Assembly: GCF_000621125.1 (NCBI RefSeq)
Contig: NZ_KK211214.1
Coordinates: 809,300 to 873,299 of the forward strand
DNA from: Maribacter antarcticus DSM 21422
GTDB taxonomy: Bacteria; Bacteroidota; Bacteroidia; Flavobacteriales; Flavobacteriaceae
Direction: 5' to 3'
DNA: 64,000 bases
The position numbers and the translations under genes are program-made. The notes under the pieces were generated by a model. The model did no database searches, had not been told where the DNA came from, and saw only the letters and a program-made list of their open reading frames with translations. Positions 18,573 to 46,976 of the stretch are shown here, piece after piece (the first letter of the stretch is position 1; every line of letters begins with the position of its first letter).

Positions 18573-18600
18573 GTTTATCGAGCAGATTTTGCACTTCAAC
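18573..18600 (+). promoter_or_regulatory. Conserved 28-bp upstream element, copy 1 (LytTR-like direct repeat)
   Basis: The half-sites GTTTATCGA and CTTCAAC are separated by a T-rich spacer. The element ends 100 bases before the start codon of the small secreted gene at 18700. Elements of the same design precede the three other family members (21811, 32183, and 46947 on the minus strand). Extended to the left, the first half-site reads ACCGTTTAT, which fits the LytTR consensus [TA][AC][CA]GTTN[AG][TG]; the second half-site is 21 bases on, the usual LytTR repeat phase. Confidence 0.5.
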
Positions 18601-18699
18601 AGACCTTCTGTTAGACACCGATTAATATAGGTTGTTCGGCGAACGACCCCCCTACAGAACACACTTGCATGCGTTATAATAGTGTAACAAACGCAAGTC

Positions 18700-18936
18700 A
18701 TGAAAACAATAGCTACCATCTTCTTTATCTTCTTCATCGGAATGAACGCACAAGCTCAGAACAATACAACAGCTGTTAAAGTAGAAACTATGGAAATGAC
18801 TATCGGTATCGAAACTACTACTGTATTGAACTTGGAGAACACTACGGAAGTTGCAAGGCTTTACAAGTTTAAAAATGCTAGAGTAACTAAAGCATTGTCT
18901 TTTACTACAAAAAGAAACAAGGCTCAAATGGCTTAG
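18700..18936 (+). CDS. Small secreted protein, family copy 1 (78 aa)
   Basis: A signal peptide (MKTIATIFFIFFIGMNAQAQ) is followed by a Thr/Glu-rich variable middle and a basic C-terminal block VARLYKFKNARVTKALSFTT then KRNKAQMA. The mature protein is only about 58 residues. Three relatives occur in this window, at 21917, 32309 and 46611-46847. Copy 1 and the 46.6-kb copy are identical at 61 of 78 positions, and their upstream DNA is also alike for about 190 bases. No cysteines are present. I recall similar C-termini in uncharacterised flavobacterial proteins but no function. It could be a surface-attached or released peptide, perhaps binding anionic polymers; this is speculation. Confidence 0.7.
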   Translation: MKTIATIFFIFFIGMNAQAQNNTTAVKVETMEMTIGIETTTVLNLENTTEVARLYKFKNARVTKALSFTTKRNKAQMA

Positions 18937-19121
18937 TATAATCAAAACTAAAATATAGGCAAGTGAAGAATTTAATAATAAAAAATATCAAGACCTTTTT
19001 TGAGAAATTAATAGTATCAAAATAGCCTACTAGGAAGAGCAAGCTAGTGCCAGTTTATGTAAGGGGAACGGATAGTGTACAAAGATAAATTCCATAACCT
19101 ATCGGATAATAAACACAGTGT

Positions 19122-21599
19122 TTAAAACTCTCGCTTACCAAATTCACTTTCTATAAACTTAGATTCGTCCTTATTTTTGTTGAAGGAATAAGACAAGTTT
19201 AACAGCACCATATCTACTTCGTAGACATAATTCGTGGTTGTAAAGAATTTTCCAGGTCTAGCCGTTGTGATGCGCTGCTCGTTCGTATTCAATACACCTA
19301 GGTCTATTTGTTGCCATTGCAGCGTAGCAACCAGTCTATTATCTAAAAACGATTTTCGGAAGCTAAGGTTGGGAGAGTAAAATTCCGAATCTTCGCCCTG
19401 TGCGGTATTTCTAGCAGATAAATAGTTGAAGGTAAATTGTAATGAAGCACTATCAGAGAACCTTAGGGTACTGTTCGCATTTACCGAATAGATAAACGCA
19501 TTGGTGTTTATGGGCCTATTGTCAAAAGCACCATCTATGGTATTGGAGTAAAAATTAGCGCCAATAAAAGTACTCCAGTTTTTGGAAGCTCGTAATTGGG
19601 TGCCTAGTTCTAGCCCTAATGCTTCCCCACGACCAACATTGGAATAAATGCGATTTAGGATGGTATCGTTAAATATAGTGTTTACCCGATTCACTATATT
19701 TTTGACGTTTCTATAATATGCTGTTGCGAAAAGCGAATTCCCTCCTTTAAAATTCTTGGTAATTCCCACTTCTACCAAATCTATAAATTCAGGCAGGAGT
19801 TCTGGGTCGCCTTGCTCCAAAGTCTCAGAATGTTCCCGTTCTGGAAACGGATTCATCTTAAAGGTAGTGGTCCGTTCTATTCGTTTGCTGTAAGCGGCCT
19901 TTATCTTGGTGTTTTTTGAAGTGGTGTATTGTACCGATGCCGAAGGAAAGGGTCGTACAAAATTATAGGTATAGGTGGTATCAATGGTATTATTTCGGTC
20001 CCTAAGGTCAAAGTTACGATCCATAGCTTCTATACGCAAGCCGGCGGAATAATCCCATTGATTTTTTTTTCCACTCAGCTGAGCATAGCCGGAATGTATA
20101 GTTCTACTCAGGTCTACGGCACTTGAAAATTCGGGTACTAGTTCAAAAAGCCCGGTTGCATTGTTGCGTCTTTCGTATATAAAATCTCCTTCATGATTTA
20201 GACTTCGGTATTGGTATCCGGTTTCTAAGGTGCCAAAGGAAAATGGTTTCCATTCGTAATCCAAGGAAAAACGAATTCCGTACAAGGGATTATCATTCGT
20301 ATTAAACTCGTCCTGTAACATAGTGGTCGTATCCGGAAAGCCTAAATTTTTGTTCGTCGTTGGCCCTCCTAATAAGGTATATTCATATAAGAGGGAAGCG
20401 TTTAGTTTTGAGCTATTTGTAAAGCTATGGCCATAATCAAAACTTCCTAAAACAAAATCACCTTTTCGTATGCGTAGATTTTCATTAAAATATTGAAAGG
20501 TGTAAAGGGAGTTCCCATTAAGAGCTGGCGTGCTTCCGGTGTTATTAAAGTAGAGGATATCGGCTGTGCGGTCCTTACTTCGTTTCCCACCATAAAATCC
20601 TAGGGAATAGTTGTTGCGTTCGTCCGGAGTATAGTCAATCGTAAATCGACCGCTATAATTGAGCTCGTCAAAACTGCGTTCTCCATCTGATGGAAATTGT
20701 GTTAGGGTGTCATTGATGATGGTAAATACATCGCCTTCCCGTCTTCCGGCCAGATCATTACGTTGGTAGTTTGCGCCAAAGGCAAAATTCCATTTATCTG
20801 TTTTTAGGGTATAGGTGGCATCCAATCCATAGCGTTGTGCTCCTTCGGTATTGCTATAAGATTCTATAGATGGCATTCCTGTCTTTAGATTTACTTGAGC
20901 AAATGTGCCGTTGACAGCTCCCTTTTTAGTCAGAATATTAAGTATGCCCGCTTTGCCTTCGGGGTCGTATTTTGCAGAAGGAGCCGTAATGACCTCTACA
21001 CGTTCCACGGAGTTTGCCGGTAGTTGGTTCAACAAGGTGGTAGGGTTTCCTTGAACTGGTTTGCCATTTAGTAAAACTACAAACCCCGAGGTGCCCCTAA
21101 CCTGTATTTCTCCCAGGCCGTTCAAACTTACTGACGGAAGATTACGCAGTACATCGGTTGCCGAACCTCCTTGGGCATTTTGGAATTTATTTGCATCGAA
21201 TACTTGCCTGTCTATTTTATTAATGACCGTCGCACTTTCTGTAGTAACCACCACTTCGTTTAATTGATTGGTTCCGAGAACCAAAGCCATGGTACCCAAG
21301 TTTATAAGCGTTTGGTTTGCTGTTACGCTTATATTTTCTATTCGTTTTTTAGTGTAGCCTATAAATGAGACTTCAAGAATATAGGTGCCGTTTTTAATGG
21401 TGTTAATTATAAAACTTCCGTCGGATGTAGTAATCACTCCGGTAATTAGGGCCGCGTTGTCTTGATTATATAAGGCAGCTGTGGCATATTCCAGTGGCTC
21501 TTGGGTGGCCTTGTCAATTAATTTCCCTGTAATTTGTTGTGCTGAAATACTGCTTAGAGAGAATAGTATTAGAAACAAGGCAATGGAATTGAATTTCAT
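19122..21599 (-). CDS. TonB-dependent-receptor-like outer-membrane beta-barrel protein
   Basis: The protein has 825 aa, with a signal peptide (IALFLILFSLSSISAQ). An N-terminal carboxypeptidase-regulatory-like domain is seen in ITGKLIDKATQEPLEYATAA and GTYILEVSFIGYTKKRIENI. A plug-type segment follows (VLRNLPSVSLNGLGEIQVRG, TSGFVVLLNGKPVQGNPTTL, VERVEVITAPSAKYDPEGKA), then a long barrel rich in aromatic/polar alternation (ISYAQL-like strands; YSAGLRIEAMDRNF). This is the bacteroidetal 'outer membrane beta-barrel family 3' type, related to SusC but without a SusD partner next to it. It probably takes up or senses a ligand across the outer membrane. Small secreted family members flank it (18700 and 21917). 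Confidence 0.87.
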   Translation of the reverse strand: MKFNSIALFLILFSLSSISAQQITGKLIDKATQEPLEYATAALYNQDNAALITGVITTSDGSFIINTIKNGTYILEVSFIGYTKKRIENISVTANQTLINLGTMALVLGTNQLNEVVVTTESATVINKIDRQVFDANKFQNAQGGSATDVLRNLPSVSLNGLGEIQVRGTSGFVVLLNGKPVQGNPTTLLNQLPANSVERVEVITAPSAKYDPEGKAGILNILTKKGAVNGTFAQVNLKTGMPSIESYSNTEGAQRYGLDATYTLKTDKWNFAFGANYQRNDLAGRREGDVFTIINDTLTQFPSDGERSFDELNYSGRFTIDYTPDERNNYSLGFYGGKRSKDRTADILYFNNTGSTPALNGNSLYTFQYFNENLRIRKGDFVLGSFDYGHSFTNSSKLNASLLYEYTLLGGPTTNKNLGFPDTTTMLQDEFNTNDNPLYGIRFSLDYEWKPFSFGTLETGYQYRSLNHEGDFIYERRNNATGLFELVPEFSSAVDLSRTIHSGYAQLSGKKNQWDYSAGLRIEAMDRNFDLRDRNNTIDTTYTYNFVRPFPSASVQYTTSKNTKIKAAYSKRIERTTTFKMNPFPEREHSETLEQGDPELLPEFIDLVEVGITKNFKGGNSLFATAYYRNVKNIVNRVNTIFNDTILNRIYSNVGRGEALGLELGTQLRASKNWSTFIGANFYSNTIDGAFDNRPINTNAFIYSVNANSTLRFSDSASLQFTFNYLSARNTAQGEDSEFYSPNLSFRKSFLDNRLVATLQWQQIDLGVLNTNEQRITTARPGKFFTTTNYVYEVDMVLLNLSYSFNKNKDESKFIESEFGKREF

Positions 21600-21916
21600 T
21601 TTGGTGCTGTAGTGGGTTGGACGTTCTTAAATCTAAGGTATAAAAGTATAGCCAAAAAGGGGGATACTCGCTCTTGACGATTGTTTAAAATAAATTTTAC
21701 CTGGTCTAATTGATATATTTGTAGGAAAAATATTAATAAATCGATGAAGTGTACTATTATATCGATAAAAGTAAAGCAAGTTTGTAGGAATTTTGATATC
21801 TAAAAGGGTTGTTCATCGAATAGTTTGAATTTCAACGGTAAAACATGACCTTTGGTCGAAAGGGGAAATGTATAATAGGGTAGTGGCGAGTTATATAGAA
21901 ACAAAATCACCTACCA
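21600..21916. other. Intergenic region between receptor gene and small secreted gene
   Basis: Divergent promoter region of 317 bases. The conserved upstream element of the small secreted family lies at 21811-21836. Nothing else is recognisable. Confidence 0.4.
21811..21836 (+). promoter_or_regulatory. Conserved upstream element, copy 3 (shortened spacer)
   Basis: GTTCATCGA then TTTGAATTTCAAC matches the element found before the other family members, but the spacing is two bases shorter and the distance to the start codon (21917) is 80 bases instead of about 100. It is the weakest of the four copies. Confidence 0.35.
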
Positions 21917-22171
21917 ATGCGTAAACTATTCTTTATTGCTTTTATCATTTCTACAGGTAGCCTAGTTCAGGCACAGGATGTACATAATAGCTCCAAGTCT
22001 GTTCAACTAAAAGTGAACACTACTTCGATTTCCATCATAAATGTGCTAGAACAACCTACGCTACCAAACAGAAAGGCAACAACACTCGTCGGAATTTTTG
22101 TCATGAAAAATTCAAGGGTCAAACGCGCTTTGAGCTTTAAAGTGAAAACAAAGAAGCCTAAATTAGTCTAA
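21917..22171 (+). CDS. Small secreted protein, family copy 3 (84 aa)
   Basis: The signal peptide is MRKLFFIAFIISTGSLVQAQ. The middle is serine/threonine-rich (VHNSSKSVQLKVNTTSISII), and the basic C-terminus VGIFVMKNSRVKRALSFKVK followed by TKKPKLV aligns with the block of the 18700, 32309 and 46.6-kb copies at N-[AS]-R-V-x-[KR]-x-L-x-F. It is the most divergent member, having lost the R-L-Y part. No cysteines and no lipobox are present, so the product is expected in the periplasm or outside. It is convergent with the tesA-like gene. Confidence 0.62.
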   Translation: MRKLFFIAFIISTGSLVQAQDVHNSSKSVQLKVNTTSISIINVLEQPTLPNRKATTLVGIFVMKNSRVKRALSFKVKTKKPKLV

Positions 22172-22191
22172 TATGATAATGTACGTAACCA

Positions 22192-22893
22192 TCAGTTTTC
22201 TAGTACTAGGGATTGCAATACGTTCCAAACGGTCTTTGCAACAATTTTCTGGCCTTCAGCCGTTGGGTGTATACCATCTTCCAAGTTTAGTTCCGGTACG
22301 CCAGCAACACCTTGCAGTAAGAACGGTATCAGTGCAACATCGTTTGCCGTAGCCAGTTCGGGATACATATTCTTAAAATCCGCAGTATAGTCTCTACCTA
22401 GATTCGGTGGAATCTGCATGCCAGCCAACACGATTTTCGTTTGTGGGTTTTTTGCACGTACCATATCGATGATGGCTTGTAAATTAGCACGAGTTTCTGT
22501 AAGTGGAATACCGCGAAGGCCATCATTTGCGCCTAGTTCCAGTACAAAAATATCCACGGCTTGGTTCAGTACCCAATCCAGTCGGTTACGTCCGCCAGCA
22601 GTTGTTTCTCCGCTAAGACCAGAATTTATCACGGTATAATCCAGCCCCAAAGAATCCATTTTAAGTTGTATCCTGTTGGGAAAACCTTCTTCGGTATCCA
22701 AACCGTACGCAGCGGTTAGGCTATTTCCAAAAAAGAGCAGCACCTTATCGCCTTCGGTTACTGTTTCGTAAGAAGTTGTTGTTTCTGTTTTAACGACATC
22801 TTCTGTCGTTGCTTTCTTTGGTTTTTCTCCACAGTTCCACAATACTAATAGTATCAAAAAATAACGAAACTTTAATACTTTGCCCATAGTCAT
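22192..22893 (-). CDS. SGNH/GDSL arylesterase (TesA-like), lipoprotein
   Basis: The protein has 233 aa. An N-terminal lipoprotein signal (FRYFLILLVLWNCGEKPKKA, lipobox Cys) precedes the SGNH blocks: block I LLFFGNSLTAAYGLDTEEGF with the nucleophile Ser, block II NSGLSGETTAGGRNR, block III LELGANDGLRGIPL and block V DGIHPTAEGQKIVAK with the Asp/His pair. These are the marks of TesA-like esterase/lysophospholipases. It is divergently transcribed from an ABC ATPase/permease pair, the same arrangement as tesA-ybbA-ybbP of E. coli. Two in-frame start codons (22893 and 22887) are equally plausible. Confidence 0.88.
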   Translation of the reverse strand: MTMGKVLKFRYFLILLVLWNCGEKPKKATTEDVVKTETTTSYETVTEGDKVLLFFGNSLTAAYGLDTEEGFPNRIQLKMDSLGLDYTVINSGLSGETTAGGRNRLDWVLNQAVDIFVLELGANDGLRGIPLTETRANLQAIIDMVRAKNPQTKIVLAGMQIPPNLGRDYTADFKNMYPELATANDVALIPFLLQGVAGVPELNLEDGIHPTAEGQKIVAKTVWNVLQSLVLEN

Positions 22894-22948
22894 CTACCCT
22901 TTAAATTGAAATCATTTCGTTATTTTGTCAGCTTGACCGAAATGACAT

Positions 22949-23638
22949 ATGACAAAGATATTAAACGTAAGCAAGCTTAGGAAAACCTATAGCAGTGGTT
23001 CCAAAAATTTAACGGTTCTTGAGGACATTTCCTTCAGTATAGACGCTGGTGATACCTTCGCCATCGTGGGCCCGTCCGGAAGTGGAAAGACCACACTTTT
23101 AGGTCTTTGTGCGGGACTAGACCGTTCGGATGACGGTATCGTAAGCCTTTGTGGGGAAGATTTAAGCGCTTTAAATGAGGACGAGCGTGCTTTTTTACGT
23201 AACCAGAAAGTGGGTTTTATTTTTCAGGATTTTCAATTACTATCGACACTTACGGCTTTGGAGAACGTAAGCGTACCCTTAGAGCTTCAGGGCGCTACCA
23301 ATGCCGCTGAGGTAGCTATGGAACTGTTGCAAAAAGTAGGTTTAGGAAATCGTCACGATCATTATCCATCCCAGTTATCAGGAGGGGAACAACAACGTGT
23401 TGCTTTGGCAAGGGCTTTTTCTACTAAACCCGAAATTTTGTTTGCGGACGAACCCACAGGGAATTTAGATGAGGAAACAGGGGAGAAGGTCATTAAACTA
23501 CTGTTCGACCTGAACAAGGAAGCGGGCACGACGCTCGTTATTGTAACCCACGACCTGGATTTGGCCCGACGCAACAACCACGTCTTACGATTGAAAGGTG
23601 GAAAAATTAGTGCTAACGAAACTACCGCAGTATCTTGA
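22949..23638 (+). CDS. ABC transporter ATP-binding protein (YbbA/LolD-like)
   Basis: The protein has 229 aa. Visible motifs are Walker A AIVGPSGSGKTTLLGLCAGL, Q-loop region VGFIFQDFQLLSTLTALENV, signature PSQLSGGEQQRVALARAF and Walker B EILFADEPTGNLDEETGEKV with the H-loop VIVTHDLDLARR. This is the MacB/LolD/YbbA subgroup of ATPases that drive FtsX-type permeases by mechanotransmission rather than transport across the membrane. The stop codon overlaps the start of the permease gene (TTGA). Its head-to-head position with the arylesterase points to the conserved tesA-ybbA-ybbP module. Confidence 0.93.
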   Translation: MTKILNVSKLRKTYSSGSKNLTVLEDISFSIDAGDTFAIVGPSGSGKTTLLGLCAGLDRSDDGIVSLCGEDLSALNEDERAFLRNQKVGFIFQDFQLLSTLTALENVSVPLELQGATNAAEVAMELLQKVGLGNRHDHYPSQLSGGEQQRVALARAFSTKPEILFADEPTGNLDEETGEKVIKLLFDLNKEAGTTLVIVTHDLDLARRNNHVLRLKGGKISANETTAVS

Positions 23639-26184: not shown

Positions 26185-26352
26185 AGTAGGATTGCTTTTT
26201 TTAAAGAATAACTACAAAGCATCTAGTATCTTAGGTTTTATAAGTTGGGTATAAGTACTACCAATATTCAATCATTATACTGGTTTTTGAAGGTTTTAGT
26301 ATTTTTTTAATTTTACCTAAAACCTGAGGTTTTAATTATAAAATGAAGTGCC

Positions 26353-26937: not shown

Positions 26938-26970
26938 GAAAAACTAAAGATATAATCTGACGGAGTCAGA

Positions 26971-27035
26971 TACCCACGAGCGTAAGCATCTTCTGCTTGT
27001 GCTGTCAGTACATCACTAGTATGAAGCAGAAACCT
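26971..27035. repeat. Dispersed intergenic repeat, copy A
   Basis: ACCCACGAGCGTAAGCATCT is followed by CTGCTTGTGCTGTCAG and later AAGCAGAAA. It aligns with 27573-27648 (copy B) and 28088-28160 (copy C) through the pattern CCyAC-n-CGCAAGyATCTT-n-CTC/TTG-n-GTCAG. All three copies directly follow a plus-strand gene. Confidence 0.5.
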
Positions 27036-27071
27036 TAACCGTGTTGTTTTTTAACATCAAATAAATTTGAA

Positions 27072-31989: not shown

Positions 31990-32308
31990 TACTAGCTAAA
32001 TTATGAATTTTTATGTTTTGAAGTATATAATAGTTGTTTTTTGGTCATAGCGAAATAGCGATATAGGCGCTACTTTTTATGAGTTTTACTTGTATCTGAC
32101 CTACGACACCGGACTTTTGAATACTTAAAATCATCGGTGAATGACTATGCTTTAAAGATGATTGGTTTTGAACCCTTTTCCAGTTTACCGACCCTTCTTT
32201 ACGCTTTATCCAAGATGTTTACAAACAACGAAAAAGCTAGTATTTCAGCGGTATACAAAAAGAGTGAACTTAAATCAGGGTCATCTTTGAGTAACCCAAA
32301 CGATTATT
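31990..32308. other. Intergenic region upstream of a small secreted gene
   Basis: Apart from the conserved element at 32183-32210, these 319 bases hold no convincing gene; a 70-codon plus-strand frame at 32137 lies across that element and overlaps the next gene, and is judged a chance ORF. Confidence 0.4.
32183..32210 (+). promoter_or_regulatory. Conserved 28-bp upstream element, copy 4
   Basis: GTTTACCGA followed by CTTTATC, with the same 28-bp length as copies 1 and 2 and about 18 of 28 bases identical to copy 1. It ends 99 bases before the ATG at 32309, essentially the same distance as for copies 1 and 2. Confidence 0.42.
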
Positions 32309-32566
32309 ATGAAAGCTGTTTTAACCGTATTTATACTTCTTTTTCTTAACGCTGCCGCAGTAGCACAAGACGGGAAAACCAATGATAAAGTTAGCACTGC
32401 TCAAATAGATGTCGTTTTGGTTACTGACCTTCCTATTTTTATCTCTTTGGAAAAAGTTGGGACGAAAACGCAGAACAAGGTAGCTCGTTTGTACCGGCAC
32501 CAAAATTCTAGAGTAAAAAAGGCTTTATCTTTCAAAACAAAAAAGGATAGACCAAAATTGACCTAG
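32309..32566 (+). CDS. Small secreted protein, family copy 4 (85 aa)
   Basis: The signal peptide is MKAVLTVFILLFLNAAAVAQ. The middle (DVVLVTDLPIFISLEKVGTK) differs from the other copies, but the C-terminus VARLYRHQNSRVKKALSFKT then KKDRPKLT matches the family block very well (V-A-R-L-Y, N-S-R-V, K-A-L-S-F). No cysteines are present. Position after a TlpA-like gene and before a convergent amidohydrolase gives no functional hint. Confidence 0.68.
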   Translation: MKAVLTVFILLFLNAAAVAQDGKTNDKVSTAQIDVVLVTDLPIFISLEKVGTKTQNKVARLYRHQNSRVKKALSFKTKKDRPKLT

Positions 32567-36900: not shown

Positions 36901-37014
36901 GTAACGTTGTTTTAATGTTGCTGCTTAAATATACCTATTATCCCTTTAAAATGCAGCAGAGAGAAGTAATTTATACTAAGCACTATGAAGATAAAATCTA
37001 AAATAAATTTTAGT

Positions 37015-38229
37015 TTACACTGCTGGGTGCAACTGCTGCGTTATTTCGTGGAATCTGATGATGTAGTTAGTTCCTTTTTTACTAACGTCTCTTTGGATAG
37101 TACCTTTTAATTGCCGAGTGAGGTTATGGATGAGCTTTAGCCCTAATGACTTGGAATTTTTATGGGTTATTGTTTCTGGGAAACCTTTACCGTTGTCACC
37201 AATATTAAGTACATATTGTTTGTCCAGTTCTTTATTTAAGACAATATATATTTCACCTTCTTCTTCATCAGCAAAACCATATTTTAAGGCATTAGTTACC
37301 GCCTCGTTAATCAAGAGCCCCAATGGTATGGCCGTATCTATGCCTAATTTTATATCTGGAATATCGATTTTTAGCTGCACCTTACTGTCCAGTCCTTTAA
37401 TAGACCTTATGAGGTACTCGCTCAATTCCTGTACATAAGATTTGTACTCTATTTGAGTAATATCATTTCGCATGTAGAGCATTTCGTGAACCATTGCCAT
37501 AGAAATAACCCTGTTCTGTGTGCTTTTAAGTAGGGTTTTCATTCTTGCCTCTTCCACATTACGTGACTGCAGACTCAGTAAGCTGGATACGGTTTGTAAG
37601 TTATTTTTTACTCGATGATGTACTTCCTTTAGTAGCGTTTCCTTTTCTTCCATTTGTGCAGTAAGTTCTTTTTTGGAACGGTACAGCGCATGGTGTGTTT
37701 TTAGTAAGTTCTTACCGAATATATTACCTAGAAGAAACATAGAGAATAAAACGGAAAGGAGGTTAAACAGGTCTTTTGAACCCTCTGGAATTATATTTTC
37801 TGTGATACTAAGGTCAGGAATGCTTTGCAAAAAAATTAAGAGTACCAGACAAAAAACAAGAATAAGGTACACCTGTCCGTATCGTTTCGTGGTAACATAA
37901 CCAGCAAAGACAATCAAGGCCAGCGTAAAAATAAAGGGACTATTGATGCCGCCGCTATAGAGGGTAATGATTAAGGCACTAATAAGCGCCATTATAGAGG
38001 AAATATTATAGGTGGTAGTGATGTTTTTATACTTGTGAAATGCCCAAGTATTTAGAAGGTTGCAAATACCAAAAGCCACAAAAATAACAGGAATTATCTG
38101 CTTTATGTTTAGTCCGAAATAGCAGATAGCCGCAAAAATTAGGGACAAAGCACTAGAAACGTAGTTTACCTTTAAAATAAGAGAAACCTTATCTTTAAGA
38201 CGTTCTTGATCTACATGTGAATCGTTCAT
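37015..38229 (-). CDS. Membrane sensor histidine kinase (HisKA_2 type)
   Basis: The protein has 404 aa. Residues about 20-180 hold six hydrophobic helices (VSSALSLIFAAICYFGLNI, SIMALISALIITLYSGGINS). The coiled-coil linker (SKKELTAQMEEKETLLKEVH) leads to HHRVKNNLQTVSSLLSLQSR, the phospho-acceptor motif of the HisKA_2 class. The ATPase domain has NEAVTNALKYGFADEEEGEI (N box), NIGDNGKGFPETI (G1) and LGLKLIHNLTRQLKGTI. No periplasmic sensor domain is visible, and no response regulator lies next to it, so it is an orphan. It probably senses membrane state or a small ligand within its helices. Confidence 0.9.
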   Translation of the reverse strand: MNDSHVDQERLKDKVSLILKVNYVSSALSLIFAAICYFGLNIKQIIPVIFVAFGICNLLNTWAFHKYKNITTTYNISSIMALISALIITLYSGGINSPFIFTLALIVFAGYVTTKRYGQVYLILVFCLVLLIFLQSIPDLSITENIIPEGSKDLFNLLSVLFSMFLLGNIFGKNLLKTHHALYRSKKELTAQMEEKETLLKEVHHRVKNNLQTVSSLLSLQSRNVEEARMKTLLKSTQNRVISMAMVHEMLYMRNDITQIEYKSYVQELSEYLIRSIKGLDSKVQLKIDIPDIKLGIDTAIPLGLLINEAVTNALKYGFADEEEGEIYIVLNKELDKQYVLNIGDNGKGFPETITHKNSKSLGLKLIHNLTRQLKGTIQRDVSKKGTNYIIRFHEITQQLHPAV

Positions 38230-38343
38230 ATAAAACGTTTTGATTCGATATTAGTTTTTGTTACCCAAATGTAAAACTAATCATGTTTACTCAATAATTC
38301 CAATACTTTTTAACATTCCGAAAGTAGGAAGCTAAAAAAAACT

Positions 38344-39700
38344 TTACATCCTTCTCTTTATTGGCTTTAAATCTGTTAAATCACCAATAGAAATGGGTTT
38401 TTTCTCCTGCACGCTTTTATGTGTTGCAATACCAATTAAAATTGACATGGCACCGTCTCGTAGTCCCGACTGTCCTATCAAATTTGTCAGTAGTATCTTG
38501 GTATACGAATATTTTATCATGCAAACGCTAAACGCCGCCACCGTGCGCGCTTTTTTCCATTTGTACGTCTACGGTCTCGTGCTCTTGGCAAAGTTTGTGC
38601 ATAATTATGGGCTCTATATACCTTTCTTCTTGTTGCGACTGTTCTATTTCCTTGGCGTGTTTCTCTGCCTCGTCTACGGTATTCATTTTATGGTAGGGAA
38701 TATCTTGCCAAGCCACTATTTGGCCTTTGGTGCCGTTAAGGGCTATACGCCAACCCTCAAAAGGGGACTAGGTGGTTAGGGAGTAATTGAGGATAGTATT
38801 GTCGGTATATTTTACTTGAGCGGACATCTTATATTAAATAGCTATGTTTTCACTAAACAGGCAATTATCACGTATATAACCATCTTCATGTTCCACGTAG
38901 CGTTCTTTGGAAAATTCATCGGTTGATGTCCCAATAGAACTTGCAGGAATCCGTAAAACCACAGGTTCTGCAGTTTGGCCCCCGTTGTGTTCCGTTTTTA
39001 CCATAAAACTCAAGATCACCGTTGGCAAAAACTTTATTTGGTTCTGAATTTATCCACCAATTCAGTAAGTCGAAATGATGGGTAGCTTTATGTACCCATA
39101 ACGAGCCGCTACTTTCCATTTCACCATGCTAGTGTCTAAAGTAAAAGGCACCGTGGTAGGTGTTTAAATACCAATTAAAATCAACCGAAACCAATTCTCT
39201 TACAGTGTCATTTTGTAACAGTACTTTTATTTTGGTGGCACAAGGACTCCAACTATAATTGAAACCGACGATTAGGTTTTTTTTAGACATTTTTAAACTT
39301 TATAATACTTTGGCATTTAATTTCGTCCGTGTCCATTGGTTTTTCCGGTAGCACATCACAACCCATTTCCAGACTTTTTATCATAAATTCATGATGATTG
39401 GAATCTTTGATGGTGACAATAACTAAATCTGGTTTGGTCTATTTTACCATTTTATCAAAGTCAGTAAACAGTGGGCAGTTGGTTCTTATATACCCTTTTC
39501 CACAAGATAGTCGATTTGAATTGCTATCGTAAAGACCCACGAATTCTAAAATATCAGAGTAAGTGTCCAATAAGTGTTTCCCCAAAAGGTAGTACCTCTT
39601 ATGCCGGTTCCCACTAAAACTATCTTTAATTTGGAGGTCTTTCCAAAAGCAAAACTGTTTAAGGGCAATACCCCCACTTGCGACGAGCATATTTATAGAA
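38344..39700 (-). pseudogene. Gfo/Idh/MocA-family oxidoreductase, multiply frameshifted
   Basis: Reading the minus strand from about 39700 gives GKHLLDTYSDILEFVGLYDS with IRTNCPLFTDFDKMVK (cofactor-binding part). Then follow PDLVIVTIKDSNHHEFMIKS, EMGCDVLPEKPMDTDEIKC (the EKP motif), [60 protein letters not shown] and, at the end, SGLRDGAMSILIGIATHKS. This is one complete, co-linear oxidoreductase of about 430 aa, cut by several frameshifts and stops. An intact enzyme would oxidise or reduce a sugar or polyol with NAD(P). Decay seems fairly recent because nearly every segment is still readable. Confidence 0.82.
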
Positions 39701-39911
39701 CTAAGAAACTTCGTTCTTGAATATGTAATAGGTAGTCGGAATTAATTACACTACAAGTTACTTAGATAATTGGCTAGATGTACATTGAAACGGGGCTCCT
39801 GACGGTATATCGATAACTCAAGAAGGTCTAAACAGTAAACGATAGAGCCCTATTTATTTTCTTACGTTCTCTTATAACGCAAATAATAAAGGGTATAACA
39901 GAAGATTTGGC

Positions 39912-40136
39912 TTATTCTATAATCTCGTAGTCGATGCTTAATTTTCGTAAAGCCCTTAAAGCAGAACCAGAATTTTTGTCTTCCATCAGTATATCTACAG
40001 GGTCTCCTTCTAGTAGTATATCTGTAAGTTCATTCGACAAGGATGCATCAATATTAGATGAAACGGCTTCAATACATTTAGCAATAGCCCTTCTATCTGG
40101 TTTCTGAGCGTCACAGGATAATAAGTTTAGTTTCAT
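39912..40136 (-). CDS. Small acidic hypothetical protein (74 aa)
   Basis: Intact ORF with ATG at 40136. The protein is soluble, without signal or membrane segment: MKLNLLSCDAQKPDRRAIAK, CIEAVSSNIDASLSNELTDI, then EGDPVDILMEDKNSGSALRA and a final LRKLSIDYEIIE. I do not recognise a family. Its beta-alpha-beta-like rhythm with an acidic pI could suit a small ribosomal-protein-L7/L12-like or regulatory fold, but this is a guess. The 39701-39911 gap upstream of it in map order shows no gene. Confidence 0.45.
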   Translation of the reverse strand: MKLNLLSCDAQKPDRRAIAKCIEAVSSNIDASLSNELTDILLEGDPVDILMEDKNSGSALRALRKLSIDYEIIE

Positions 40137-40321
40137 AATATAGTTTAGTAATTCAAGGATAAGAGGTTGGGTTCTATTGAATGGAAGTTGGATTATTATC
40201 CATGTTAAAAACCAGTGACAAAAGAAATATAAATCATTAAAGGTCTATATTTCTTTTGTTAGTGAAATTAAATTAAAATTTAATTTCACCATTAAACAAG
40301 TTATTTGAGGTAATTACGATA

Positions 40322-40420
40322 CTACTTCGACTTCTTTAATCTCTTTTCTTCTTTCTTTTCTTTAGCTGTTTTTGCAGGTTCTTTTTTGACATTTTTTTTT
40401 GCGTCTTGACTTTTTGCCAT
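40322..40420 (-). CDS. Lysine-rich 32-aa protein of the 'MAKSQ-KK' type
   Basis: The start at 40420 gives MAKSQDAKKNVKKEPAKTAK then EKKEEKRLKKSK and a stop. About half of the residues are lysine or glutamate. I recall nearly identical 30-40 aa lysine-rich proteins ('MAKGQNSKK...KEPAKT-KEKK-AK') annotated as hypothetical in many Bacteroidota, which supports a real gene. It could bind nucleic acid or ribosomes. It is too short for ordinary ORF finders. Confidence 0.55.
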   Translation of the reverse strand: MAKSQDAKKNVKKEPAKTAKEKKEEKRLKKSK

Positions 40421-40866
40421 AATAATAGTATTTAATGATTAGTATTTTTTTAGTAATTAAGTGACTAGGTATGCGTGCACATCAAACAACAAAAGTCATG
40501 ATATTCAACTCACTTGGGAGTTTAATATTCGATGTCTTTTTTGTCGTTTGCAAAGACAAAAGGCTTTAGTTAAATAATTAAAGTCTGTTTTCTTACCGAA
40601 AGATAGCGTAATTAATGACAGTTTAAAACCTTTAATTTTTTAATCTTTTGTCATATTAATTCTCTTTGTCACCAAATAGATTCTCTGGGTTTTAAAATTA
40701 TAATGGCTTCTCTCCTCGGATGAGGAAAGAAGCCATTATATCTTATTTTTAAAAACTTAAGGAACAAATAAAAATATAGCCACTTTTCAAATACTATAGC
40801 TACTTTGGTATTGACCGCAGCGTAACCCAAAATAGGTACTATCTTTTAGTGCCTATTGCTAAGCGT
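40421..40866. other. Intergenic region downstream of secA
   Basis: No gene is visible in these 446 bases apart from the hairpin at 40700-40741. The left part is the upstream region of the lysine-rich small gene. Confidence 0.45.
40700..40741 (-). terminator. Hairpin downstream of secA, probable terminator
   Basis: TATAATGGCTTCT and AGAAGCCATTATA are perfect complements with an inner CCTC/GAGG extension. The hairpin lies about 125 bases after the secA stop. The T-run beyond it on the minus strand is weak (TTTT), so it may act in either direction. Confidence 0.5.
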
Positions 40867-43800
40867 TTAATCTTGAGTAATTACCCATTCACCTTTATGG
40901 AGTAAGGGTTCGGCCTGCTTGAATTTAACGGTCTTGCTTTCGCCGGACATAACATTCTTTATGGTTACGCGTTCGTTTCTGCCAATTTTTGGTTGCTCTC
41001 TGGTAATGGTTTCAGTCACTTGTGGACGTTGCCCTTGGTTCTGACCTACAGCTCTGCTGCGGGCTGCAAGTTCATCACTATTAGGAATTTCGGCTTTAGA
41101 GGTCTGTAAATTTTCCTTACTTTGTTGTACTTTACGAGCTTCTTGTATCTCGTTTGAATTTTCAGAAGGTAGTTCTCCTTTGAACAAGAAAGAAATAATT
41201 TCCTTGTTCACTTTCTCAATCATCTCTTTGAAAAGTTCAAACGCTTCGAATTTATAGATTAATAAAGGGTCTTTTTGCTCGTGTACCGCTAATTGAACCG
41301 ATTGTTTTAGTTCATCCATTTTTCTCAAATGTGTTTTCCAAGAGTCGTCTATAATAGCAAGTGAGATGTTTTTCTCAAAATCTGTAACCAATTGCTTTCC
41401 TTCGCTATCATAGGCTTCTTGTAAATTAGTCACCACACTAAGACTTTTAATGCCATCCGTAAACGGCACTACAATACGCTCAAAGTTGTTGGACTTGTCC
41501 TCATATACTTGTTTTATAACAGGCAAAGCGGAAGCGGCGTTACGCTCCATCTTCTGCTTATAATACTCATAACCTGTTTTGTAGACTTTCCCGGTAATTT
41601 CTTGTGCACTTAATTTTCCAAATTCTTCCTCTGTAATAGGGGAGGTCATGGAGAAATATTTTATTAATTCAAACTCAAAATTTTTATAATCACTGGCGCC
41701 TTTGTTGCCCTCTACAATCACTTCACAGGTATCGTAAACCATATTGGCAATATCTACCTTTAAACGTTCTCCTTGCAATGCATGACGTCTTCTTTTATAA
41801 ACTACCTCACGTTGTGCGTTCATCACATCATCATACTCCAATAAACGTTTACGCACACCAAAGTTATTTTCCTCTACTTTTTTCTGTGCGCGTTCAATGG
41901 ATTTGGTCATCATACTGTGCTGAATGACTTCACCATCTTCAAGTCCCATCTTATCCATCATCTTGGCCACCCTGTCCGAACCGAACAACCGCATTAGGTT
42001 ATCCTCTAAGGAAACGTAGAATTGAGAGCTTCCTGGATCTCCTTGACGCCCAGAACGTCCTCTTAACTGTCTATCTACCCTACGGGAATCATGTCGTTCT
42101 GTACCTACAATAGCAAGTCCGCCAGATTCTTTTACCTCGTTGGAGAGTTTGATATCTGTTCCACGTCCTGCCATGTTCGTAGCAATGGTCACTACTCCTG
42201 CGTAACCTGCCTCTGCAACTACATCTGCTTCCTTCTTATGAAGTTTTGCGTTCAATACGTTGTGCGGTACTTTACGGACACTTAAAAGTTTAGAAAGCAA
42301 TTCAGATATTTCTACAGAGGTAGTACCAATAAGAACGGGTCTTCCAGCCTGGCTCAATTTGGTAACCTCGTCTATAATCGCGTTGTATTTTTCCCGTTTT
42401 GTTTTGTAAATCAAATCATTACGATCATCCCTGGCAATCGGTCTATTGGTTGGAATTTCCATTACATCCAATTTATAGATTTCCCATAACTCTCCAGCTT
42501 CTGTTACTGCTGTACCAGTCATACCGGCCAACTTGCTATACATTCTAAAGAAATTCTGTAAAGTAACCGTGGCGAAGGTTTGGGTTAATGCTTCGATTTT
42601 TACATTTTCCTTAGCTTCAATGGCCTGGTGCAATCCGTCCGAATATCTACGACCATCCATAATACGACCAGTCTGCTCGTCTACAATCATCACCTTGTTT
42701 TCCATTACCACATATTCCGTATCTTTTTCAAATAGAGTATATGCTTTTAACAATTGACTCATGGTATGAATGCGCTCACTTTTTATGGTAAAGTCTTTAA
42801 AAAGCTCCTCTTTAATTTCTGCTTCTTTTTCAATTTCTAAACCTTGATTTTCAATCTTAGCGATTTCACCTCCTATATCTGGCATTACAAAAAAGTCCCT
42901 GTCTTTCTCCCCAGAGATATAGTCTACTCCCTTATCTGTAAGTTCTATCTGATTGTTCTTTTCGTCTATCACAAACAATAGGTCTTCATCGACTTTAGGC
43001 ATCTCCCTGTTATTATCTTGCATGTAAAAGTTCTCTGTTTTCTGCAAGAGCTGTTTTACCCCTTCTTCACTCAGGAATTTTATCAGTGCTTTATTTTTTG
43101 GCAGTCCTCTGAAAACGCGAAGTAATAAAAATCCTCCTTCTTTGGTGTCGCCCTCTGCAATCAGTTTTTTTGCTTCGGCCAAAATACCTGTTAAATGCTG
43201 ACGCTGTTTTTGAACGATTTCGTTGACTTTTGGTTTTAATTCATTAAACTCGTGTCGGTCTCCTTCCGGTACAGGCCCAGATATGATAAGCGGCGTACGT
43301 GCATCATCTACCAAAACAGAATCTACCTCATCTACAATCGCATAATTATGTGGTCGCTGTACTAAATCTGTTGGCGTATGTGCCATGTTATCCCTTAGGT
43401 AATCAAAACCGAACTCGTTGTTAGTGCCATACGTGACATCTGCGTTATAGGCTGCTCTTCTGCCGTCGGAGTTAGGTCTATGGTGGTCTATACAGTCTAC
43501 GGAAAGGCCGTGAAATTCAAAAATTGGGGCCATCCATGCACTATCCCTTTTTGCTAGGTAGTCGTTAACGGTAACCAAATGGGTTCCGTTGCCTGTTAGT
43601 GCATTCAAATATAACGGTAGGGTCGCTACCAATGTTTTGCCTTCCCCAGTTTGCATTTCAGCAATTTTACCTTGGTGCAGGGCAATACCTCCAACAAGCT
43701 GTACATCATAATGCACCATGTCCCAGGTCACTTGCTTACCGGCCGCATCCCAAGAATTTTTCCAAATCGCTTTATCGCCGTCCAAGGAAAGATAGTCTTT

Positions 43801-44229
43801 ACTGCCAGATAACTTTCTGTCGTTTTCAGATGCGGTAACGGTGAGGGTTTCGTTATCAACAAAACGTTTTGCCGTTTCCTTTACTACAGCAAAAGCTTCA
43901 GGTAATATTTCGTTTAAGGTAGCTTCTGAAATAGTGTAGACCTCTTCTTTTAGAATATCTATTTGTGTGTAGCTATCCTCGTTTTTATCGATGTCGGTAG
44001 ACTCGTGAACTTCTTTTTCTAGCTCGGCTATTTGGGCAGTGATGTCTTTGTAGGAGTCTTGTATTTTTTGCTTAAAATCGATGGTTTTCTGACGGATTTC
44101 ATCCAAACTCAGTTTTTCCATATCGGCTTCAAAAGACTTTATTTGTTCTACAAGAGGTTGAAGCTCTTTTACATCTTTTTTTGATTTGTCGCCAACAAAA
44201 GCCTTTAAGACGGAATTTATGAAACTCAT
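40867..44229 (-). CDS. secA: SecA preprotein translocase ATPase (long bacteroidetal form)
   Basis: The protein has 1,120 aa; E. coli SecA has about 900, and extended insertions are normal for Bacteroidota. Motifs visible: [20 protein letters not shown] (Walker A region), [38 protein letters not shown] (Walker B/DEVD), TVATVTLQ-type [40 protein letters not shown] and [20 protein letters not shown] (arginine fingers). The C-terminus ends [10 protein letters not shown] without the zinc-binding CxCxS motif of proteobacterial SecA, as usual in this phylum. It drives export through SecYEG. A hairpin terminator follows. Confidence 0.97.
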
Positions 44230-44392
44230 ATGTTTTTATGTATTTGTACCGAATACGTAGAGGTTTTAATCTCTAAGAGGTTTTTTATATTAATTAAAAT
44301 CGATTTTTACAACTTATATATCAATTAGGAACAAAAGCCATTCCAGTCTCTACAATAGTCTAAAATACCTTTTATTACTGTCAAAATTACAT

Positions 44393-44420
44393 AAAAAAAA
44401 AGCCTCCAAGGAGACTTTTT
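44393..44420 (-). terminator. Intrinsic terminator of the DUF2795 gene
   Basis: On the minus strand AAAAAGTCTCC TT GGAGGCTTTTT continues into a nine-T run; there is one G-T pair in an 11-bp stem. It lies about 120 bases after the DUF2795 stop, which is far for this gene, yet no other gene precedes it on that strand. Confidence 0.55.
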
Positions 44421-44537
44421 AGTAGTAATTATAATATGTAAGCCTACAAAAGGTAGTTCGTCATAAAATGATACAGCCTATTTTATATACCTTGTTTATA
44501 ACCAAATAGTATGCTTATGTTTTAGCTAAATGTAGCG

Positions 44538-44762
44538 CTAATATTCGTCCTCGTTCCAGAGGTAGTCTTCTTCCGTGGGATAGTCTGGCCAAATCTCTTC
44601 AATTGATTCGTAGATTTCACCACCTTCTTCCTCCATGGATTGTAAGTTTTCTACAACCTCTAAAGGCGCACCGGTTCTGATTGAGTAGTCAATCAACTCA
44701 TCTTTACTTGCCGGCCAAGGTGCATCACTTAAATAAGATGCTAGTTCTAATGTCCAATACAT
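44538..44762 (-). CDS. DUF2795 domain-containing protein
   Basis: The protein has 74 aa. It matches the short DUF2795 pattern: MYWTLELASYLSDAPWPASK, DELIDYSIRTGAPLEVVENL (the helical core 'ATKDELIDYA-x-R-x-GAP-x-x-V-x-x-N-L') and a strongly acidic tail EIWPDYPTEEDYLWNEDEY. The family is small, cytoplasmic and uncharacterised, possibly nucleic-acid- or protein-binding. It has its own promoter (44789-44818) and terminator, so it is monocistronic. Confidence 0.88.
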   Translation of the reverse strand: MYWTLELASYLSDAPWPASKDELIDYSIRTGAPLEVVENLQSMEEEGGEIYESIEEIWPDYPTEEDYLWNEDEY

Positions 44763-44788
44763 GGTAACAATGTTTTTTTATATTTTTG

Positions 44789-44818
44789 CAAAAATAATTT
44801 TTAAATAATGGCAGCCAA
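44789..44818 (-). promoter_or_regulatory. Bacteroidetes-type promoter of the DUF2795 gene
   Basis: On the minus strand TTG (44816-44818) is followed by 19 bases and TATTTTTG (44796-44789), which fits the phylum consensus TTTG/TAnnTTTG with usual spacing. The ATG (44762) lies 26 bases after the -7 box. This is the clearest promoter that I saw in the window. Confidence 0.55.
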
Positions 44819-44896
44819 GATAATTCGCAATTATTTCGTTTTAGTTATCAACATTTAACGCTTTTGTAAATTGATAACGAAGAAATTTGAGTTTTA

Positions 44897-45472
44897 TTAG
44901 TCCGTTTTTTCTGAAATCCATTTTACCTCTTCTGCCTTCAAATCTTTTGACAATTTTCGTGCCAATACAAACAGATAGTCCGAGAGACGGTTTAAATAAG
45001 AGAGAACCTGTTCATCAAAAGGTTCGTTTTCTTGTAAAAGTGTCGCCATGCGTTCTGCCCTTCTACAAACGGTACGTGCGATATGACAGTATGACACGGT
45101 AGTGTGGCCACCGGGAAGTATGAAATGTGTCATTTGTGGCAAATCTTTTTCCATAGTGTCTATGGCTACTTCTAGTTTTTGGATATGGGATTCCTTAATT
45201 CTTGGAATATTGAGCCGCTCTTTACCATTTTTTAATACTGCTTTTTCTGGGTCCGTTGCCAAAATTGCGCCAAGGGTGAACAAGTCTTCTTGTATTGTGG
45301 TAAGTTCTTGTTTGGTTGAAGTGTCTATTTTTTGGTCACGAACAAGCCCCAACCAGGAATTAAGCTCGTCTACGGTTCCGTAGCTATCTATACGGATATG
45401 ATGTTTAGGAACACGCGTGCCGCCAAAGAGTGCTGTTTCTCCTTTGTCTCCGGTTTTGGTATAAATTTTCAT
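44897..45472 (-). CDS. ATP:cob(I)alamin adenosyltransferase, PduO type
   Basis: Start chosen at 45472 (MKIYTKTGDKGETALFGGTR), the canonical family N-terminus; the upstream extension to 45604 looks random. Of 191 aa, the family marks are KIYTKTGDKGETALFGGT (ATP-binding loop), IDSYGTVDELNSWLGLVRDQ, FILPGGHTTVSYCHIARTVC RRAER and LNRLSDYLFVLARKLSKD. It transfers the adenosyl group from ATP to cob(I)alamin, giving coenzyme B12. With meaB at 11.8 kb it supports a B12-dependent methylmalonyl-CoA pathway. It is followed at a 135-base distance by the DUF2795 gene on the same strand. Confidence 0.94.
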   Translation of the reverse strand: MKIYTKTGDKGETALFGGTRVPKHHIRIDSYGTVDELNSWLGLVRDQKIDTSTKQELTTIQEDLFTLGAILATDPEKAVLKNGKERLNIPRIKESHIQKLEVAIDTMEKDLPQMTHFILPGGHTTVSYCHIARTVCRRAERMATLLQENEPFDEQVLSYLNRLSDYLFVLARKLSKDLKAEEVKWISEKTD

Positions 45473-45648
45473 ATGTTTCTTTTGGATTTTTAGGAAGCCT
45501 GAAGCGTAGTATTTCAGGTTTCTTTTGTTACTGTTTTTGAAAGCAGGCAATTGATAGTGGTTAGCGGACAGTCGAATGATATTTCTCAGTACCCCTATTT
45601 TCATGTTGACTTTTGAACTTTTCTGTTCTTACTACCAATTGCAAGGGC

Positions 45649-45789
45649 CTACTTCTGTTCCTTTTTTCGTTTATAATCCTCCATGAATTTTCTTGATTTT
45701 CTATCTCTTGATTTTCCTCTATTCATAAAACGGAAACCTACATAAATCGCAAAAACGACTCCAAGAGTAATGTATACGGTATTGTTCAT
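45649..45789 (-). CDS. Small single-span membrane protein (46 aa)
   Basis: The start at 45789 gives MNNTVYITLGVVFAIYVGFR, one membrane helix, followed by a highly basic cytoplasmic tail (FMNRGKSRDRKSRKFMEDYK then RKKEQK). It lies between the adenosyltransferase and the methyltransferase-like gene on the same strand, with a short gap to each, so it is probably in the same transcript. I know such short 'TM plus KR-tail' proteins as hypothetical in flavobacteria. Confidence 0.55.
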   Translation of the reverse strand: MNNTVYITLGVVFAIYVGFRFMNRGKSRDRKSRKFMEDYKRKKEQK

Positions 45790-45819
45790 GGTCTAGGATT
45801 AGTGATTAAAATTAAGGGA

Positions 45820-46314
45820 TTATATCCGTATCTTAAAATGTTCCTTTGCTTGTTCTTTTCTGAAAAATACGATACCACAGTGGTACAGATCCAAAGTAAC
45901 ACGAACATGCGCTTGCTCTTTTAATGCGTTCCACATGGTACGGCTTTTCTTTGTGGCGTGTACGCCCTCTATGATGAGCATACTTTCATTATGAATATAT
46001 TGTTTTCCAATAGTTTTAAATGGTTTGCCTAATACATTCGCATAAATAATATCAAAAGGAAAAGAGCCGTAGTCCAACTCTTCAAATATGGTATTCAACT
46101 TTATTTTGAGTTCATTGGAATCGGTTACCAAGCCAATATTTTTGTGTGAAAAATAGGATATGCTTTTTACTAAAACATTTTCTGTAACCGAAAGGTCTTT
46201 GTTTCCTTTACGGTATAAACCCTTAGTAACGAACCCGTATATGAACGGAGAGTGCACGCCATGCTGATTGGTTGCCGAAAGGAGAAACTTTATATAATAA
46301 ATAAACCGGTACAC
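45820..46314 (-). CDS. Shortened O-methyltransferase-like protein (164 aa)
   Basis: The N-terminus FLLSATNQHGVHSPFIYGFV is typical of a flavobacterial SAM-dependent methyltransferase family of about 240 aa. The C-terminus (IIEGVHATKKSRTMWNALKE, VTLDLYHCGIVFFRKEQAKE HFKIRI) also fits. The middle is short: the glycine-rich SAM motif expected near residues 60-90 is absent, and ISYFSHKNIGLVTDSNELKI passes directly to the second half. It could be an internally deleted but still expressed relative without activity, or a family variant. It starts the 46.3 to 44.5 kb minus-strand group. Confidence 0.6.
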   Translation of the reverse strand: MYRFIYYIKFLLSATNQHGVHSPFIYGFVTKGLYRKGNKDLSVTENVLVKSISYFSHKNIGLVTDSNELKIKLNTIFEELDYGSFPFDIIYANVLGKPFKTIGKQYIHNESMLIIEGVHATKKSRTMWNALKEQAHVRVTLDLYHCGIVFFRKEQAKEHFKIRI

Positions 46315-46610
46315 TGCTGCAATTCAAAATTTATCAAAGGTAGTCATACGCACTCTATTTTTTAGTGGAGATTTGGTTATAAAGATAGGAGTGTTCAAGA
46401 AGTGTAATGTTTATCTTTTTTTGTCTAATGCTGAAGAAGTGTCTTTTTAATGTACTGGGTGATGTTCTTGATAGCGCTCTAAACACCTGGTGAGTCAACT
46501 TCTTCATCAGCCCTTACTACTATTATAATGATAAATGCCCACTAATAATGAACTCTGGCAGGAGGTTTAATTAATGGGCACTTAAATCATGAGCGTTAGT
46601 CGATATTATA

Positions 46611-46847
46611 TTAAGCCATTTTAGCTTTGTTTCTTTTTGTAGTAAAAGTCAATACTTTAGTTACTCTAGCATTTTTAAACTTGTAAAGTCTTGCAACTTC
46701 CGCAGTGTTCTCTTCCTTCAATTCAGTAGTAGTTTCGATAACGGTAGTTATTTTAATAGTTTCTACATTAACAGCTGTTATGTTGTTCTGAGCTTTTGCG
46801 CTCATTCCGATGAAGAAGATAAAGAAGATGGTAGCTATTGTTTTTAT
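46611..46847 (-). pseudogene. Small secreted protein, family copy 2, start codon ATA
   Basis: The 78-codon frame aligns end to end with copy 1 (18700): leader KTIATIFFIFFIGMSAKAQN, then the basic block VARLYKFKNARVTKVLTFTT and KRNKAKMA; 61 of 78 residues agree. The codon that is ATG in copy 1 is ATA here (46845-46847), all else around it being the same. The next ATG (46805) would yield MSAKAQNN and lose the signal peptide. So the gene is either silenced by a start-codon mutation or uses the rare start ATA. The sequence otherwise shows no stop or frameshift, which suggests a recent change. Confidence 0.6.
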
Positions 46848-46946
46848 GACTTGCGTTTGTTACACTATTATAACGCCAGCAAGTCTGTTCTAGAGGGTAG
46901 TCGTTCGCCGAATAACCCACATTACTCCGTATCTGACAGCAGTTTG

Positions 46947-46976
46947 GTTGAAGTGCAAAATTTGTTCGGTAAACGG
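46947..46976 (-). promoter_or_regulatory. Conserved upstream element, copy 2
   Basis: On the minus strand CCGTTTACCGAACAAATTTT is followed by GCACTTCAAC, which is nearly the same as copy 1. It ends exactly 100 bases before the (ATA) start codon at 46847, again the same distance as copy 1. The flanking 190 bases are also similar in the two copies. Confidence 0.5.

Follow-up and report, generated by a model that had tools for sequence, protein, structure and literature searches.

The AgrD-AgrC-AgrA and ComC-ComD-ComE systems of Gram-positive bacteria couple a peptide to a kinase, LiaS and BceS are intramembrane-sensing kinases, and regulators of the LytTR type recognise direct-repeat sites spaced by about 21 bp, with a consensus of their own. 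Here we analyse a 64,000-nucleotide stretch of the genome of Maribacter antarcticus DSM 21422 (the window; RefSeq assembly GCF_000621125.1, contig NZ_KK211214.1, positions 809,300 to 873,299, forward strand) in which four genes encode microproteins with a signal peptide and a basic tail, and in which a membrane histidine kinase is encoded within the same genomic block. An earlier sequence-only reading of this DNA had grouped the four proteins into one family and listed a peptide signal, an envelope-binding peptide, a polymer-binding surface factor and an immunity or competence effector as possible roles. The family is under purifying selection and distributed over several genera of Flavobacteriaceae, its genes are preceded by arrays of phased sites, its type A copies are kept alike within most of the genomes compared, and it occurs in nearly the same genomes as the kinase. 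A literature search covering titles and abstract openings returned nothing on the microproteins, and to that extent both the protein family and its upstream module seem undescribed.

A family of putatively exported microproteins

The three plus-strand genes at 18700-18936 (copy 1, 78 amino acids), 21917-22171 (copy 2, 84 amino acids) and 32309-32566 (copy 3, 85 amino acids) translate as previously claimed. The fourth frame, at 46611-46847 (copy 4, 78 codons), is likewise real and ATA-started; its strand, which had been left unstated, is the minus strand, and the plus strand does not encode copy 4. Copy 1 consists of a signal peptide, an acidic middle and the basic tail VARLYKFKNARVTKALSFTTKRNKAQMA, the tails of copies 2 and 3 read VGIFVMKNSRVKRALSFKVKTKKPKLV and KVARLYRHQNSRVKKALSFKTKKDRPKLT, respectively, and copy 4 reads IKTIATIFFIFFIGMSAKAQ...VARLYKFKNARVTKVLTFTTKRNKAKMA, confirming a paralogous family of small proteins (78-85 amino acids) with a signal peptide, a variable middle and a conserved basic tail. 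The shared tail exceeds chance expectation, as a profile built from the four members matched exactly these four genes in the 4,850,576-base genome (E 1e-34 to 1e-37), the best non-family match having an E of 0.49. Two details of the sequence-only reading hold in part: the VARLY motif ascribed to all four tails is present in copies 1, 3 and 4 but is replaced by VGIFV in copy 2, and the observation that no two copies are adjacent applies to this window but not to relatives, where tandem copies are common.

Three types could be distinguished, namely A (copies 1 and 4), B (copy 3) and C (copy 2), the labels having been assigned by simple motif rules, with slight differences from script to script. 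In the tree, type C is a near-clade, with 13 of the 14 tips of its best node, and type B is partly a clade, its best node (8 tips) holding 7 of 10. The ATA start of copy 4 is genuine, since a stop codon lies four codons upstream with no ATG, GTG or TTG in between. The 171 collected matches, which include one chance match (locus L080), begin with ATG in 169 cases, with ATA in copy 4 only, and are represented by a fragment in the remaining case. Eight other Maribacter genomes have a copy at the syntenic place of copy 4, each beginning with ATG. Because copy 4 differs from copy 1 by 17 nonsynonymous (181.2 sites) and 4 synonymous differences (49.8 sites), in addition to having lost its ATG, it is probably drifting or decaying in this genome.

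The family extends well beyond M. antarcticus, disposing of the possibility that the profile would find no relatives outside this genome. The four-member profile retrieved 643 relatives from a large protein set at E<=1e-3, and among the 120 of them that were listed, those with a name belong to Maribacter and Zobellia. A scan of named genomes added Eudoraea, Kriegella, Muriicola, Aurantibacter, Poritiphilus, Euzebyella, Saonia and Pseudozobellia (among the best 80 of 202 confirmed matches). All 35 other searched genomes of the genus contain 2-10 copies, and a family copy was found at E<=1e-8 in 70 of 397 Flavobacteriaceae genomes, the large genome searches having scored only the top candidates from a first pass. 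In other families of the order, 2 of 23 genomes gave matches, both weak (best E 0.0015 and 0.0076).

Consistent with the earlier description, no cysteine occurs after residue 20 in 160 members, 157 of which fit a loose signal-peptidase pattern that would be in line with their export. Over these members the middle carries a mean charge of -3.7 and the tail one of +8.9. The ratio of nonsynonymous to synonymous substitution rates (dN/dS), calculated over 638 pairs that are not independent, was 0.26 overall, 0.28 in the signal peptide, 0.38 in the middle and 0.13 in the tail; the reading frames are thus under purifying selection, strongest in the tail, contrary to the second outcome that had been named as fatal to the family. 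AlphaFold2, run on 54 sequences, predicted a signal helix at residues 2-20 and a seven-residue helix at residues 60-66, with the remainder at low confidence (mean predicted local distance difference test score 62.9), and since confidence is low outside these helices, a simple reading of the model is that the mature microprotein would be disordered. No convincing match to a known domain was found in Pfam, NCBIfam, PADLOC or PDB, as the sequence-only reading had anticipated. Pfam gave no match near cut-off for the four window microproteins and only scattered weak matches for 54 family members (best E 0.0035), and NCBIfam profiles, sorting-domain models included, matched three of the microproteins with 0 families at E<=0.01. 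In this curated-profile search the microproteins belonged neither to type IX secretion system cargo nor to any curated family.

A defence system was rejected, as a PADLOC search of three microproteins and the kinase returned no match. The immunity or competence role found no support either, with no PADLOC match and no defence or competence gene among the Pfam-named genes of the window. A related alternative is that of an antimicrobial precursor, in which the acidic middle would neutralise a cationic tail of about 28 residues that, once released, attacks competitors. The charge split of -3.7 and +8.9, the short helix predicted in the tail and the occurrence of multi-copy genes with high codon adaptation (see below) would suit such a precursor, but bacteriocins evolve fast and this tail is highly conserved, there is no PADLOC or convincing Pfam match, and the loci, in which some open reading frames (ORFs) are unidentified, showed neither a recognisable immunity gene that recurs throughout nor a recognisable dedicated exporter. 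We regard this alternative as very unlikely.

A shared upstream control module

The approximately 190 bp preceding type A genes can be aligned across genera, with CG cores that are invariant or nearly so and spaced by about 20, 33, 21, 19 and 21 bp. R1, a sequence model trained on 50 upstream regions of type A genes, matched the regions upstream of copy 1 (18516-18702, plus strand; 115.4 bits, E 5.8e-35) and copy 4 (46846-47027, minus strand; 117.3 bits, E 1.4e-35), both among its building sequences (the latter as L003), and also that of copy 3 (32126-32257, plus strand; 34.1 bits, E 8.4e-10), which lay outside the building set. The copy 1 module contains phased TCGRTRAA/TTYAYCGA-like sites and an inverted repeat preceding the ATG; in some genes an inverted repeat such as GGCGTTTTATATATATAAACGCC stands just before the ATG. 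Type C carries a divergent version of the module that is hardly detected by R1. Upstream of copy 2 (21732-21908, plus strand) it comprises TCGATGAA at 21741, TCGATAAA at 21762 and TTCATCGA at 21812, and R1 reached E 0.014 on the plus strand and 0.0026 on the opposite strand.

Counted on either strand, the 7-mer TCGDTDA occurs 2.88 times per 200 bp in type A upstreams (137), 1.89 times in type B (9) and 3.54 times in type C (13). The 676 control upstreams taken from the same loci average 0.21, and 3 of them had at least three sites. A similar density (2.80 per 200 bp) was obtained for 44 further family upstreams, mostly from other genera, although these counts are not independent observations because the family upstreams are homologous. 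When R1 was applied to 21 Maribacter genomes, 63 matches with E<=5.5e-8 were spread over 20 genomes; 60 directly precede a family gene and 3 run into a contig end (counted by eye), and all weaker matches had E 7.5e-4 or worse. Since every strong match is thus accounted for by a family gene or by the end of a contig, types A and B of the family seem to have this module to themselves.

The weaker matches offered one candidate for a wider regulon, a single stretch on contig C11 of genome G000 (position 104828, E 7.5e-4). It was treated as chance, since beyond the strong matches the other 20 Maribacter genomes gave only scattered ones with E 0.002 to 0.005. This module-like stretch (104828-104916, L116) precedes an ORF without a Pfam match that may encode a signal peptide, and about 16 kb away lies a gene that we take to resemble PorP/SprF. 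A riboswitch or structured RNA leader was also rejected, as the 50 upstream sequences shared no conserved fold (consensus energy -0.7 kcal/mol, 5 pairs) and Rfam had no match in the window at the gathering threshold.

Type A copies are kept alike and have ribosomal-like codon usage

Copies 1 and 4, each with its module, form the arms of a 412 bp inverted repeat (blastn; 18531-18942 on the plus strand and 46605-47016 on the minus strand, 86.9% identical) with unrelated flanks. Both places are also occupied by copies in eight further Maribacter genomes. Within genomes, the coding sequences of the two copies are identical at 0.90 (this genome), 0.95, 0.99, 0.95, 0.69, 0.95, 0.81, 0.85 and 0.98 of positions, whereas between genomes copies at the same place average 0.73 and 0.70 for the two places, with maxima of 0.93 and 0.83 (36 pairs each). 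The copies are thus homogenised (identity of at least 0.90) in six of the nine genomes, likely by gene conversion or repeated re-duplication.

Codon adaptation was 0.735 for copy 1, 0.738 for copy 4, 0.681 for copy 3 and 0.568 for copy 2, against means of 0.719 for a ribosomal block (30 genes) and 0.602 for the window (29 genes). Among 2000 random background stretches, none reached copy 1, 0.35% reached copy 4, 6.9% copy 3 and 44% copy 2, so that copies 1 and 4 are ribosomal-like and copy 2 is background-like. In other genomes, C-ending codons exceeded the locus level in 80 of 101 type A and in all 9 type B genes, type C having been left out of this comparison with only 3 comparable genes. This codon usage suggests that type A genes may be highly expressed.

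Codon usage, copy number and homogenisation are the reasons for which, among the roles listed by the sequence-only reading, an abundant envelope or polymer binder is favoured over a peptide signal. The signal reading nonetheless stays alive because of the neighbouring histidine kinase and its ties to the microproteins.

Co-occurrence with an orphan membrane histidine kinase

The candidate partner is a 404-amino-acid histidine kinase encoded at 37015-38229 (minus strand), which exceeds the Pfam cut-offs for HisKA_2 (92.0 bits; cut-off 22.3) and HATPase_c (40.3 bits; cut-off 26.4). Its motif HHRVKNNLQT, with the conserved His, is invariant in 25 aligned rows, and its N-terminus is hydrophobic, with several predicted transmembrane segments (Kyte-Doolittle). 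Short versions of about 294-311 amino acids also exist, of which that of locus L154 has two hydrophobic segments separated by a tiny loop. Relatives carry one to three kinase copies beside SecA. In Zobellia, Pseudozobellia and Euzebyella loci (L035, L040-L043, L048, L101 and L111) three kinase paralogues stand near-tandem beside SecA, far more diverged from each other than are the microprotein copies.

Across the 397 Flavobacteriaceae genomes, kinase and microprotein were found together in 69, the microprotein alone in 1 (G260), the kinase alone in 7 and neither in 320; the corresponding counts in a 249-genome set were 43, 1, 3 and 202. Genomes with weak microprotein matches (G093, G111, G115, G144 and G190; best E 5.5e-7 to 4.7e-5) were excluded from the 44 gene-bearing genomes of the latter set, and the kinase genomes include none of the five. 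The closest microprotein-kinase pair was at most 18 kb apart in 42 of the 43 genomes (median 5 kb), these distances being upper bounds because they were computed from a selection of the listed gene positions. In the fragmented assembly of G108 the two genes are on separate contigs. The link to the kinase is statistically strong, yet it reflects few independent events.

A proposed role and its alternatives

The explanation that we put forward, tentatively and at somewhat less than an even chance, is that of an abundant, disordered, polyanion-binding envelope protein whose level would be set by the kinase through an unlinked regulator. After removal of the signal peptide, the exported microproteins would be disordered chains with an acidic middle and a strongly basic tail. 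Type A would be the bulk product, with several near-identical copies, ribosomal-like codons and a dedicated control region of about six phased sites for a single putative regulator, and types B and C, with lower codon adaptation, would be its companions. The orphan kinase may sense the state of the membrane or envelope and signal to an unlinked response regulator that would adjust the microprotein level, and, in the periplasm or on the cell surface, the basic tail may bind an anionic polymer (lipopolysaccharide, capsule, extracellular DNA or algal polysaccharide).

Several observations weigh against this proposal. The two type A copies are not clearly homogenised in three of the nine genomes. 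No response regulator was recognised beside the kinase in the window or in the fetched relatives, where some unlabelled neighbours are unidentified, and kinase genes lack site arrays, only the L111 kinase (14107-15315) having two 7-mer sites among the 676 controls. Genomes G280, G313 and G436 hold the kinase beside SecA with no detectable microprotein, G260, in which no kinase was found, has its microproteins next to SecA where a contig ends, and G118, G134, G334 and G344 have the kinase type elsewhere without microproteins (in G134, L150, it adjoins genes identified by Pfam as L20, IF-3 and a threonyl-type tRNA synthetase). Moreover, the co-occurrence is inflated by common ancestry, because kinase and microprotein genes share one synteny block.

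The last point leads to an alternative in which the microproteins are envelope or matrix proteins under another regulator and the kinase is an unrelated neighbour within a vertically inherited block. Conservation of the block SecA-kinase-M14-amidohydrolase-M23-MsrA as a whole is in keeping with it, as are the three genomes with a kinase in the same place and no microprotein and the microproteins of G260. The neighbouring M14 gene, however, tracks the microproteins far worse than the kinase does. With orthologues defined by at least 55% identity and 44 gene-bearing genomes, M14 and microprotein were found together in 32, the microprotein without M14 in 12 (11 with kinase) and M14 without the microprotein in 36 (2 with kinase). 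This control is imperfect, being weakened by the fact that SecA was not beside M14 in 14 of the 15 fetched M14-only stretches; in G275, SecA-M14-amidohydrolase-M23 are kept and both kinase and microprotein are missing. We consider mere synteny not very likely.

Alternatively, the exported proteins or their processed tails could bind the kinase as ligands and so switch on the genes that encode them, through a LytTR-like or other regulator. The tight linkage of small exported proteins to an orphan kinase with several transmembrane segments would fit such a peptide signal, as would the short L154 kinase, whose membrane part is reduced to a hairpin of two helices with a tiny loop, so that the signal could be carried by a partner protein. 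The upstream sites, about two helical turns apart, also recall LytTR direct-repeat sites. The spacing fits LytTR but only the central site resembles its consensus. Moreover, 23 LytTR genes of this genome (24 loci found; L149 excluded as a wrong ORF) had no upstream arrays, with single sites at three, and none of the 24 loci of about 3.2 kb contained a HisKA_2 motif; LytTR is at present an unsupported candidate for the regulator. Ribosomal-like codons and multi-copy homogenisation speak for a bulk product, the kinase has no recognised response regulator next to it, and the tail is conserved across genera without evident receptor-specific diversification. On balance, a peptide signal appears unlikely. 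A bolder combination would be a novel form of envelope signalling in Bacteroidota, in which an intramembrane HisKA_2 kinase would have disordered exported microproteins with self-homogenising copies both as its input and as its main output, by way of a dedicated regulator that reads about six sites and controls little or nothing else; it appears quite unlikely.

Whichever role applies, a type A-bearing family that is among the best-adapted genes here by codon usage, and that is present in many algae-associated flavobacteria, is yet unnamed and domainless, and the kinase link, the control region and the conserved tail make this anonymous family of small ORFs experimentally tractable. If the microproteins are bulk polymer binders, as we favour, they may bear on how these bacteria retain algal polysaccharide. 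If they signal, they would represent a secreted-peptide sensory system in a phylum for which the titles and abstract openings searched showed none.

The genomic block

The microprotein genes are scattered in an old block, whose order is MeaB, DUF2911, an extracytoplasmic function (ECF) sigma factor, MsrA, M23, [microprotein], GDSL, an ABC pair, [microprotein], amidohydrolase, M14, kinase and SecA, with variation in order and members. In the window, the M23 peptidase gene (17834-18520, plus strand), which we do not count among the components of the proposed mechanism, is the left neighbour of copy 1, and the kinase is accompanied by M14, a broken oxidoreductase gene and SecA (40867-44229, minus strand), its regular neighbour. 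The broken oxidoreductase-like gene between kinase and SecA (38350-39720, minus strand) is matched by homologues in three frames, and loci of Zobellia and Maribacter flavus have intact homologues of about 464 amino acids in that position. At 14420-16974 the ECF sigma gene is followed by two conserved genes (191 and 493 amino acids), and this arrangement keeps its place in the block in many genera; the product of 493 amino acids has a weak match to DUF4097 that falls slightly short of the cut-off.

In G436 (L204) and G313 (L205) the SecA-side kinase adjoins a second ECF sigma gene where relatives hold microproteins. A kinase-ECF sigma-receiver link in these two genomes was rejected, as the neighbouring proteins of 125-126 amino acids have no Pfam match and hence no receiver domain, and the L204 reading frame may not be a true gene.

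Comparison with known systems

The short kinase versions resemble LiaS and BceS in having a two-helix hairpin with a tiny loop followed by the kinase domain, but they belong to another kinase subfamily and to Bacteroidota, and no LiaF- or BceAB-like partner was identified; an ABC pair resembling YbbA/YbbP belongs to the block but does not accompany the kinase in all cases. Both domains of the window kinase are shared with HisKA_2 (PF07568) kinases, PhyK-type ones included, and PhyK is its best NCBIfam similarity. It nevertheless scored 132.3 bits against a cut-off of 750, has no adjacent partner gene and carries as N-terminus a bare multi-transmembrane region, reduced to two segments in the short version examined.

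The likeness to the Agr and Com systems lies in a small, predicted-exported protein linked to a histidine kinase with several transmembrane segments and no recognised sensor domain, and in upstream site repeats about two helical turns apart. The microproteins differ in having an ordinary Sec-type signal peptide, in a kinase of the HisKA_2 type beside which no response regulator was found, and in several homogenised copies with high codon adaptation and a tail conserved between genera. By analogy, the possible pairing of kinase and microproteins would be a variant of the known peptide/kinase logic.

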